Positions 39,116 to 55,319 of a stretch of DNA of 64,000 nucleotides are shown one piece after another (within the stretch, counting starts at the first letter, position 1; each line of letters opens with the position of its first letter). Under the pieces are notes generated by a model. That model had not been told where the DNA came from, searched no databases, and was given only the letters and a program-made list of their open reading frames with translations. This DNA is from Luteococcus japonicus. Lineage in GTDB: Bacteria; Actinomycetota; Actinomycetes; Propionibacteriales; Propionibacteriaceae. The stretch spans positions 3,286,001 to 3,350,000 of the forward strand of contig NZ_RKHG01000001.1 of the NCBI RefSeq assembly GCF_003752415.1, written 5' to 3'. A program made the position numbers and the translations under genes.

Positions 39116-39145
39116 TTGATTCCATTCGAACACTCGTTCTACTAT
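39116..39145 (+). promoter_or_regulatory. recA promoter with SOS box
   Basis: The -35 TTGATT (39116-39121), 18-bp spacer and -10 TACTAT (39140-39145) enclose the SOS box TCGAACACTCGTTCTA (39126-39141; consensus TCGAAC-N4-GTTCGA, 11 of 12 positions). LexA binding would cover the promoter core. About 175 nt of leader follow before the recA ATG. Confidence 0.88.
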
Positions 39146-39327
39146 TGTCCTGTTCTTGAGCCACTCACTCGCCGTCGGGGAAACCTGAGAGTCCGTCCAC
39201 AGGCCGACTTTTCCACAGCGGAGGGTTGGTCGTGAAAAATTGTCAGAGGCGATTTCTAGAGTCTCAGGTGTTGGTTCGACGACAAACGCTCACCGGGGCA
39301 GTCCCGGTCAAGGAAGGAAGGCCGTTC

Positions 39328-40383
39328 ATGGCTGTCGCAGATCGTCAGAAGGCCCTCGAGGCCGCGCTCGCCCAGATCGAGAAGGCTCACGGCAAGGGGA
39401 CCGTGATGCGCCTCGGGGAGGAGACGCGCCTGCCCATCGGCTTCATCCCCACCGGCTCGGTGGCGCTGGACGTCGCCCTGGGTATTGGCGGCCTGCCCCG
39501 CGGTCGCGTCGTGGAGATCTACGGCCCGGAGTCCAGCGGCAAGACGACGGTGGCACTGCACGCCATCGCCAATGCCCAGAAGGCCGGTGGCATCTGCGCC
39601 TTCATCGACGCCGAGCACGCCCTCGACCCCGATTACGCGCAGAAGCTGGGCGTGGACACCGACGAGTTGCTGGTCAGCCAGCCTGACAACGGTGAGCAGG
39701 CCCTGGAGATTGCCGACATGCTGGTGCGCTCCGGTGCCCTGGCCCTGATCGTCATCGACTCCGTGGCGGCACTGACCCCGCGCGCCGAGATCGAGGGCGA
39801 GATGGGTGACAACCACGTCGGCCTGCAGGCACGCCTGATGAGCCAGGCCCTGCGCAAGATGACCGGCGCCCTGAGCCAGTCCGGTACCAGCGCCATCTTC
39901 ATCAACCAGCTCCGCGAGAAGATCGGTGTCATGTTCGGCTCGCCGGAGACCACCACCGGTGGCAAGGCCCTCAAGTTCTACTCCTCGGTGCGCCTCGACG
40001 TGCGTCGCATCGAGACCCTCAAGGACGGCACCGACGCGGTGGGCAACCGCACCCGCGTCAAGGTCGTCAAGAACAAGGTGGCCCCGCCCTTCAAGCAGGC
40101 CGAGTTCGACATCATCTACGGCGAGGGCATCAGCCGTGAGGGCAGCCTGATCGACATGGGCGTGGAGCACGGCATCATCCGCAAGGCCGGTGCCTGGTTC
40201 ACCTACGGCACCGACCAGCTCGGTCAGGGCAAGGAGAATGCCCGCACCTTCCTCAAGAACCACCCCGAGGTGGCCGAGGAGTTGGAGGGCAAGATCCTCA
40301 CCGCACTGGGCCTGGGTGACCTGCCCACCGAGGAAGAGGTGCCCGAGGGCATCGATCCCAAGACCGGCGAGATCGCCTTCTGA
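39328..40383 (+). CDS. recA: Recombinase RecA
   Basis: This 351-aa protein performs strand exchange and triggers LexA self-cleavage. Walker [13 protein letters not shown] lies at about residues 66-77. The catalytic Glu region [10 protein letters not shown], Walker [11 protein letters not shown], loop L1 ([25 protein letters not shown]) and loop L2 ([28 protein letters not shown]) are all present. No intein interrupts it. GGAAGGAAGG precedes the ATG at 39328. It is followed 2 nt later by recX. Confidence 0.98.
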
Positions 40384-53033: not shown

Positions 53034-53831
53034 TCACACCTTGCGCAGGACGGCGACGACCTTGCCCAGGATCCTGGCGTGGTTGCCGTCGATCGGGGAG
53101 TAGGCCTCGTTGTGGGGCATCAGCCAGACCTGGCCCGGTGTCTTCTTCAGCGTCTTGACGGTGGCCTCGTCGTCGAGCAGCGCGGCCACGATCTCGCCAT
53201 TGTTGGCGTCGGCCTGCTGGCGCACCACCACCCAGTCGCCGTCGCAGATGGCCGCATCGACCATCGAGTCGCCATGGACCTCCAACATGAAGATGGTGCC
53301 CTCACCCACCAACTGCTTGGGCAGGGCGAAGACGTCCTCCACATGCTCCTCGGCGAGGATCGGACCACCGGCGGCGATCCTGCCGACCATCGGTACGTTC
53401 ACGGCACTCGGTAGGGCATCACGGATGCCGGTGATGTCGGCCGGCTCGGAGGTCTCGGGGACCGGCTTGGCCTTGGGCTTCAGGGAGTCCGGGAGGTGCA
53501 GTTCCATGGCGCGGGGTTGGCCGTGCACCCGTCGGATGTACCCGCGATTCTCCAGCTGCTTGAGCTGGTGGGCGACGCTGGACGAGCTGGCGAGGCCGGA
53601 GGCATCGCAGATCTCACGGATGGTGGGCGGATAGCCGCGCTGGGCGAAGGAGTCCCGGATGATCTCCAGGATGCGACGCTGGCGCGGGGTCAGTCCATCG
53701 GGATCCGCGGGGCCGTCCGGGAGCGCCTTGAGCCGTCCCCGTCCCGCCAGCTCGCGGCGCACCTGCTCATTGCTGGGCCGGCCCACCGGACGCTTGCCCT
53801 GGGGGCTGTTCTTCTCGTTCCCTGTCGCCAT
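53034..53831 (-). CDS. lexA: SOS repressor LexA
   Basis: This 265-aa repressor cleaves itself when RecA is active. The N-terminal winged helix ([55 protein letters not shown]) is followed by the cleavage site RIAAGGPI (Ala-Gly). The catalytic Ser is in [16 protein letters not shown] and the Lys in [10 protein letters not shown]. About 45 residues ([35 protein letters not shown]...) precede the usual start. The leaderless promoter (TTGAAT-17-TAGGCT, then 6 nt to the ATG) supports the long form. Confidence 0.95.
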
Positions 53832-53837
53832 GGGGCA

Positions 53838-53878
53838 AGCCTAGTGCCCGGAGGCGTTCGATTCAAACATCTGTTCGA
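53838..53878 (-). promoter_or_regulatory. lexA promoter and SOS box
   Basis: On the minus strand the -35 TTGAAT (53866-53861) is separated by 17 bp from the -10 TAGGCT (53843-53838), 6 nt before the lexA ATG. The SOS box TCAAACATCTGTTCGA (53863-53878, forward reading) overlaps the -35, so LexA represses its own gene. Confidence 0.85.
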
Positions 53879-53999
53879 GGTTGTGGGGTGGCATTTGCGG
53901 GTGCTCCGGAGGTCTGTTCACAAAAAATGTCAGAGGCACCTGTTTGACTCATCATGACCTCGAACCGCGGGTGTCGACCATCGGCCGACACGCCATCAT

Positions 54000-54063
54000 T
54001 CGAATGGATGTTTGATTGGAGCGGGGAGGGGCGCTAGTGTTGAGGCATCGAACACCTGTTCGA
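54000..54063 (+). promoter_or_regulatory. SOS promoter with two LexA boxes
   Basis: The -35 TTGATT (54012-54017) and -10 TAGTGT (54035-54040) have 17-bp spacing. A perfect SOS box TCGAACACCTGTTCGA (54048-54063) covers the start region. A second, near-consensus box TCGAATGGATGTTTGA (54000-54015) overlaps the -35. Two boxes imply tight repression and strong induction. Confidence 0.85.
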
Positions 54064-54113
54064 CGAGCGGATGGCTCGCCGGCGGGATTTCGCCCAAGAA
54101 GCAAGGAGCAACC

Positions 54114-54500
54114 ATGAGTGCATCGCTGATCGCCAAGGCCAATGCCGTCACCCCGGCCAAGGTCCGCCGCCGCGTGCGTGAGCAGCAGCTGCGTGGCCCG
54201 CAGGCACGTCCGGTGCGGTTGACCGCGCCGGGCGGGCGTCCGCTGCAGCCGGTGGCTCCCGGTGGACACGGCGCCCCGGTCGAGCTGGTCTGGGGGTCCG
54301 ACGCGCGGGGGCGCGCCGCACGCCCGGCCAGCGGTCAGGTCCAGCTCACTGATCGCGGGATCCTCGCGGTCGTCGTGCTGTTGGGGCTGATCGTGGTCGC
54401 CACCGTGTCCGTGGGCGTGGTGCGATTTCTGGGGGTCAGCGATGCCCCCCTGGAGGAGGCGCCCACCGGCGGTACCGCCGTCGTCGCCCTGCGGAACTGA
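54114..54500 (+). CDS. SOS-controlled small membrane protein at the chiZ/divS locus
   Basis: This 128-aa protein has a basic N-terminal region (AKVRRRVREQQLRGPQARPVRLTAPGG) and a Pro/Gly/Ala-rich linker. One transmembrane helix (RGILAVVVLLGLIVVATVSVGVVRFLG, about residues 82-108) and a short outside tail (SDAPLEEAPTGGTAVVALRN) follow. The place between lexA and nrdR is where other actinobacteria carry SOS-induced division inhibitors (Rv2719c/ChiZ, DivS). A LysM domain, usual in that group, is missing. AAGGAG precedes the ATG. The predicted role, halting division after DNA damage, is an inference from position and regulation. Confidence 0.8.
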   Translation: MSASLIAKANAVTPAKVRRRVREQQLRGPQARPVRLTAPGGRPLQPVAPGGHGAPVELVWGSDARGRAARPASGQVQLTDRGILAVVVLLGLIVVATVSVGVVRFLGVSDAPLEEAPTGGTAVVALRN

Positions 54501-54566: not shown

Positions 54567-55319
54567 TCACTTGGTGTCGATCACCAGGGTGTTGCAGATC
54601 TTGTCAGCGAAGGTCTGGCGACGGGAGTCCCACAGCGGGAAGAGGTAGCCGATCAGGCAGGAGATGGTGTCCAGGATGTGCGCGATCTGGCGCAGGAAGG
54701 CCTTCCCTGCGCCCACGGGCTGGCCGGTGTCGGCATTCACCAGCTGGATGCCCAGCACCTGGCGTCCCAACGAGACGCCGGTCTTGCCGTCCTTGAAGAC
54801 CATGTTCCAGATGAACCACGCGAAGCCCACGACCAGCAGGATGAAGCCCAGGGTGGGGTTGGTGCCGACCCTCTCGGTCTTGCTCGCGTAGTCATAACCG
54901 CCAATCATCGGGTCCGTGATCCGGTTGATGATGGTGATGGGCGCCCAGTCGATCAGGTGGCTGCCCACGCGCTTGATCCACGAGGTCAGCGCAGGGGTGG
55001 GGCCGTAGGCCATCTGGCCATAGCCGGGCTGCCCGTTACCCTGCTGGGCATAGGGATTGGCCATTGCGTTCGGGTCCTGCGCGGCCGGCTGCCCGTACTG
55101 GGGCTGGCCGTAGGGATCGGCGGCGGGCTGCTGGGGCTGGCCGTACTGGGGCTGGCCGTAGGGATCGGCGGCGGGCTGCTGGGGCTGGCCGTACTGGGGC
55201 TGGCCGTAGGGATCAGCAGCGGGCTGTCCCTGCACCGGCTGCTGGCCAAAGGGCTGCTCGGGGCTGGAGTTCTGCGGGCCCCACGGGTTCTCGGGGGTCT
55301 TCTCGGGCGGGTTCGTCAC
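54567..55319 (-). CDS. RDD-family membrane protein with PYGQPQYGQ repeats
   Basis: This 250-aa protein has a low-complexity N-terminus built from 16-residue units ([16 protein letters not shown], three copies). A C-terminal RDD domain follows, with three transmembrane helices: [41 protein letters not shown], and [35 protein letters not shown]. The conserved Arg and Asp of the domain are in [10 protein letters not shown] and [12 protein letters not shown] proteins have diverse, poorly known roles in transport. The GTG at 55319 has GGAGA upstream; an earlier in-frame ATG at 55382 lacks support. Confidence 0.88.
55093..55222. repeat. 48-bp in-frame tandem repeats
   Basis: Unit 1 (55093-55140) and unit 2 (55141-55188) are identical over 48 bp. 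Unit 3 starts at 55189 and diverges after about 25 bp. They encode the PYGQPQYGQ repeats of the RDD protein and could change copy number by slippage. Confidence 0.85.

Follow-up and report, generated by a model that had tools for sequence, protein, structure and literature searches.

The locus described here lies in a 64,000-nucleotide stretch of the Luteococcus japonicus genome, called the window below. A small gene runs divergently from lexA, with SOS boxes in the DNA between the two. Beyond the far end of lexA lie hflX and dinG, and past the small gene come an RDD gene, a DUF2752 gene, nrdR, and a gene for a B12-type ribonucleotide reductase (window ORFs, identified with Pfam). The RDD gene beside the small gene carries tandem repeats of a Pro/Gln/Tyr-rich stretch (window 55080-55250). 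The features of the locus, in window coordinates, are as follows.

53034-53831, minus strand: lexA, the divergent neighbor (LexA DNA-binding domain PF01726, E 4.5e-24; S24 peptidase PF00717, E 3.4e-33)
53863-53878: lexA's own SOS box, TCAAACATCTGTTCGA, 11/12
54000-54015: upstream SOS box of the small gene, TCGAATGGATGTTTGA, 10/12, overlapping the -35
54012-54017, plus strand: putative -35, TTGATT, read by eye
54035-54040, plus strand: putative -10, TAGTGT, read by eye, after a 17-nt spacer and 7 bp before the perfect box
54048-54063: perfect SOS box, TCGAACACCTGTTCGA, 12/12, at about the transcription start
54103-54108, plus strand: ribosome-binding site, AAGGAG, read by eye
54114-54500, plus strand: the small gene, 128 aa, with one hydrophobic segment, no LysM, and no Pfam family
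54114-54344, plus strand: codons for residues 1-77, the N-terminal region, with 13 Arg/Lys versus 3 Asp/Glu, Pro/Gly-rich, predicted disordered (pLDDT 52-69 except in the last block)
54345-54359, plus strand: LTDRG codons (residues 78-82), a conserved motif where the helix begins
54351-54440, plus strand: helix codons (residues 80-109), hydrophobic core at about 83-103
54426-54452, plus strand: FLGVSDAPL codons (residues 105-113), a conserved motif predicted to lie just outside the membrane

The initial annotation of this DNA, made from the sequence alone, described the product of the small gene as a 128-aa single-pass protein, and this is borne out: there is one hydrophobic segment, and AlphaFold2, given a 32-row alignment, predicts one confident helix at residues 80-109 (block pLDDT 94-99), with the remainder at low confidence. 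By the positive-inside rule, the charge of the N-terminal region suggests that this part is cytoplasmic and that the protein is oriented N-in/C-out. The range first assigned to the feature, 53838-54500, does cover the small gene and its boxes, but it also takes in the box and leader of lexA itself.

The promoter region was likewise read correctly at the outset as having one perfect and one near-perfect SOS box around a promoter, since the 12/12 and 10/12 boxes flank a plausible one, TTGATT-17-TAGTGT. A strict sigma-70 consensus scan found no promoter for the small gene. Among relatives, 48 matches to TANNNT fall 6-13 bp before the downstream box, versus 15 over the rest of the 60-bp stretch, and because of this concentration we regard a promoter between the boxes as well supported. 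LexA on both boxes would be expected to cover the -35 and the start region. Genome-wide, SOS boxes were scored by pattern only, and this search returned just two 12/12 sites in the 3.45-Mb genome, one of which is the box of the small gene. The other (L001:1501-1516; G000:C1:2971148) immediately precedes a DUF6504 gene (Pfam E 8.9e-15). Seven sites with at most two mismatches occur in the window, compared with a mean of 1.75 when the entire window is dinucleotide-shuffled (0 of 100 shuffles reached seven), and three of the seven fall in the 280-bp stretch between lexA and the small gene. A lexA-side box of 10-11/12, a short distance upstream of lexA, recurs in most relatives. An 11/12 box (window 39126-39141) also lies upstream of recA (ORF 39226-40383, plus strand), so that three SOS core genes, namely lexA, recA, and the small gene, lie within ~15 kb of one another.

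We used genomes of the same family, Propionibacteriaceae, to which the named relatives belong, to ask how far this arrangement extends. lexA was located in 136 of 149 family genomes with completeness of at least 90%, and 110 lexA loci were read. At each locus a script chose an ORF divergent from lexA that has a hydrophobic segment. Such a single-pass ORF (median 121.5 aa), resembling the small gene and preceded within 150 bp by an SOS box of at least 10/12, is present at 92 of the 110 loci, although the script favors helix and motif, and single assignments may therefore be wrong. The main box is a 12/12 match in 60 of these 92 relatives, and a second box is found 38-60 bp upstream of it in 49. 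Several of the remaining loci are interrupted by a contig end or have an extra intervening gene. At four loci (L004, L005, L018, and L026) the small gene is separated from lexA by another gene, yet it keeps a box pair 42-56 bp apart; the pair travels with the small gene away from lexA, which shows that the SOS control is a property of the small gene itself.

Two genera depart from the usual pattern at lexA itself. No LexA was detected by PF01726 in four genomes of genus g2 (G001, G002, G004, and G005). In at least two of these, G004 (L350:931-1294) and G002 (L357:1067-1367), a small single-helix ORF sits between dinG and nrdR, and no SOS boxes were found for either ORF. Another regulator may have taken over in this genus, or the protein may have a role beyond SOS; because a single-helix ORF persists there without LexA or SOS boxes, the gene may act outside SOS. 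In genus g9 (L334-L340) LexA is mostly strongly diverged, with DNA-binding domain E-values of 1e-6 to 1e-9 and 3.6e-4 in one genome, and nrdR is a near neighbor of the diverged lexA in at least G060, G062, and G066.

The most distinctive property of the protein is the absence of a LysM domain, which the initial annotation had reported and which both Pfam and a profile from neighboring families confirm. No Pfam family matches the 128-aa protein at E ≤ 1, NCBIfam returns nothing for it, and Pfam finds no LysM among the 32 relatives; as positive controls, it confirmed LysM in six examples outside Propionibacteriaceae. For a further search in six frames, 70 lexA-linked proteins from other families were combined into a LysM profile, which matches 0 of the 110 Propionibacteriaceae lexA loci and 124 of 175 other loci, every mycobacterial one included. 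Additional Propionibacteriaceae account for most of the 175 that do not match; the others are some Nocardioidaceae and further loci, partly with short flanks. Hence, the absence is real, but it is a trait fixed across Propionibacteriaceae and not an oddity of the Luteococcus genome. Among the other actinobacterial families sampled, most have a LysM protein with LTRRG before its helix encoded divergently from lexA. The accompanying assumption that LysM is usual at this locus in mycobacteria and corynebacteria needs a small correction: in corynebacteria it is not universal, as DivS has no LysM (PMC6851548).

A LysM domain hidden by a frameshift or in a neighboring ORF is ruled out by the empty six-frame search of the 110 family loci. 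The genome does have LysM genes elsewhere (at 1.10, 1.56, 2.12, and 2.18 Mb), and none of them is near an SOS box with one mismatch or fewer. In a LexA tree made by a quick method, which is a rough guide only, the LysM state is strongly clustered; several Nocardioidaceae loci on it show no LysM within a short flank, and two Demequina rows fall inside Propionibacteriaceae, probably as a long-branch artefact.

What the family has kept can be seen by comparing its proteins with each other and with the LysM proteins. LTxRG stands directly before the helix in 64 of 70 LysM proteins outside Propionibacteriaceae, and it is present in 46 of the 92 Propionibacteriaceae proteins, versus 0.13 expected from shuffling. 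About a third of Propionibacteriaceae (the Tessaracoccus-type and some others) have diverged from it. Proteins of the Tessaracoccus-type genus g4 (L088, L090, L095, L099, L104, and L111) lack LTxRG and share another conserved C-terminus, ...DPAxxYVxGDPAWAHV, suggesting a second sub-type inside Propionibacteriaceae. Both groups have a basic N-terminal region, with a median net charge of +8 in the Propionibacteriaceae proteins and +6 in the LysM proteins. An alignment of orthologs, proposed at the outset as a way to find conserved residues of the helix, did so: in 32 closer relatives, selected because they resemble the window protein, the helix start has an invariant T79 and R81, and G82 is at least 90% conserved. 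After the helix, FLxVSxxP is the consensus of the same 32 relatives, and the pattern is found in 26 of the 92.

Several known systems resemble this protein in part. ChiZ (Rv2719c, Mycobacterium tuberculosis) and the other actinobacterial lexA-linked LysM proteins are divergent from lexA, have an SOS box, and combine a basic disordered N-terminus with one N-in/C-out helix and a C-terminal LysM. The small gene agrees with them in its divergent position at the lexA-nrdR locus, in its predicted LexA sites (12/12 and 10/12), and, by prediction, in having a basic, disordered N-terminus ahead of a single transmembrane helix; LTRRG before the helix in the LysM proteins of most families corresponds to its LTDRG. 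It differs in having no LysM, a tail of ~20 residues instead of ~65-80, and the outer motif FLxVSxxP instead. Having no LysM, it is classed here as a LysM-less variant and not as a full ChiZ-type member. For ChiZ, filamentation and a mislocalized FtsZ ring are reported to need no more than the helix and the disordered N-terminal part; ChiZ is also reported to contact FtsQ and FtsI (PMC7355643), and its LysM is apparently not needed, according to a review (PMC3989709). YneA of Bacillus subtilis is also a lexA-linked single-pass SOS division inhibitor but has a LysM, which is essential for inhibition, while its helix binds FtsW TM7 and localizes the protein (PMC13396833). DivS (Corynebacterium glutamicum), likened here by description only, is actinobacterial, lexA-linked, and SOS-induced, with a single helix and no LysM (PMC6851548, PMC3989709). 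SosA (Staphylococcus aureus) adjoins lexA, has an SOS box, is single-pass without LysM, and needs conserved membrane-proximal outer residues (PMC6851548). Compared by layout, SosA differs in its length (77 aa), its very short N-terminal part (helix at 10-30) without a long basic disordered tail, and its phylum; the resemblance is one of working only. Judged by these layouts, the 128-aa protein is a ChiZ inner half joined to a short, SosA-like outer half. SidA (Caulobacter crescentus), for which we claim no homology, is likewise a minimal membrane protein induced by SOS that inhibits the divisome; it is proteobacterial and much shorter.

We consider it likely, from these comparisons, that the small gene encodes an SOS-induced division inhibitor and is a LysM-less member of the ChiZ-type lexA-linked lineage. 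The main alternative is that the SOS-induced membrane protein protects or remodels the envelope or aids repair, for instance by altering membrane or wall synthesis generally, and does not block division. Direct support for the small gene covers SOS control and topology only, and the LysM on which inhibition by YneA depends is gone, so that its loss could mean loss of activity. However, division inhibitors recur at this locus in other Gram-positives, and it is the filamentation-causing part of ChiZ to which the conserved motif and helix correspond; we judge the alternative unlikely.

A second alternative, under which the protein would still be a division inhibitor, concerns its descent: an unrelated small membrane inhibitor may have replaced the ChiZ-type gene and converged on its topology, as with SosA and DivS relative to ChiZ. 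Inhibitors known at lexA loci share little sequence (PMC6851548), and the window protein alone has no match to the helix profile of the LysM group (-4.3 bits). This result, and the lack of LTxRG in mycobacterial ChiZ relatives, make homology an inference at the level of the family only. At that level, hhalign places the helix-region profiles of the two groups in the same register (70.8%, E 3.8e-5, a single comparison), LTxRG occupies an equal place relative to the helix far more often than shuffling predicts, and a single domain loss, in the ancestor of one family, is the simpler account. The argument for homology to ChiZ comes from where the gene lies, from the motif, and from a profile match of moderate strength, and replacement seems quite unlikely. 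A degenerate leftover, having lost LysM and its function and retaining only a LexA-controlled promoter and a reading frame, would fit the low conservation (mean column identity of 27% in the 32 relatives) and variable tails, but is very improbable given that most Propionibacteriaceae genera retain both the reading frame and the SOS boxes, that T79 and R81 are invariant, that the outer motif is conserved, and that the box pair follows the gene after rearrangement.

The case for a LysM-less division inhibitor draws on the lexA-nrdR position, the box pair with its promoter, recurrence at 92 of 110 loci, LTxRG, the in-register profiles, the basic N-terminus, and the published work on ChiZ, YneA, and SosA. 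In undamaged cells, LexA dimers on the two boxes would keep the gene off. Upon DNA damage, RecA-stimulated cleavage of LexA would allow the protein to be made and inserted N-in/C-out. Its basic Pro/Arg-rich tail and LTDRG-capped helix would then dock on the septal synthase complex FtsW/FtsI/FtsQ, as ChiZ and YneA suggest, and the outer motif FLxVSxxPL would restrain septal wall synthesis until repair is done, like the membrane-proximal outer part of SosA. We propose this division of labor, with docking by the helix and inhibition through the outer motif, because the inner half is ChiZ-like and the outer half SosA-like. The lineage would have lost its LysM anchor in Propionibacteriaceae, leaving the basic disordered tail, the helix, and a short outer tail. 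The initial proposal, an SOS division-inhibitor locus whose protein may work through its helix, fits both the comparative data and what is reported for the ChiZ N-terminus and helix (PMC7355643); its suggestion of new biology needs narrowing, as DivS and SosA are already LysM-less inhibitors beside lexA (PMC6851548) and this kind of inhibitor is therefore known. A more specific idea, that this is a minimal kind of inhibitor in which the LTxRG helix cap and the nine-residue FLxVSxxPL replace LysM in switching off the septal wall synthase, is one we put forward tentatively, as possible but short of probable.

Neither the form present in Propionibacteriaceae nor its two motifs and double-box promoter appear to have been described in the literature searched. 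No paper treating LexA, the SOS box, and cell division together for Propionibacterium was found there, which is weak evidence of novelty. Accounts of whether LysM is the active part of ChiZ/YneA-type inhibitors differ, as it is essential in YneA and reported dispensable in ChiZ. A whole family that has dropped LysM while keeping SOS control, the helix, and two short motifs provides a direct test and marks residues to mutate. If true, the minimal-inhibitor reading would be a natural experiment in which targeting and inhibition, as carried out by the ChiZ lineage, are assigned to separate parts. Propionibacteriaceae include skin, dairy, and environmental actinobacteria, for which the literature searched gives no description of a DNA-damage checkpoint; the small lexA-side protein is probably the cell-division brake of this family.
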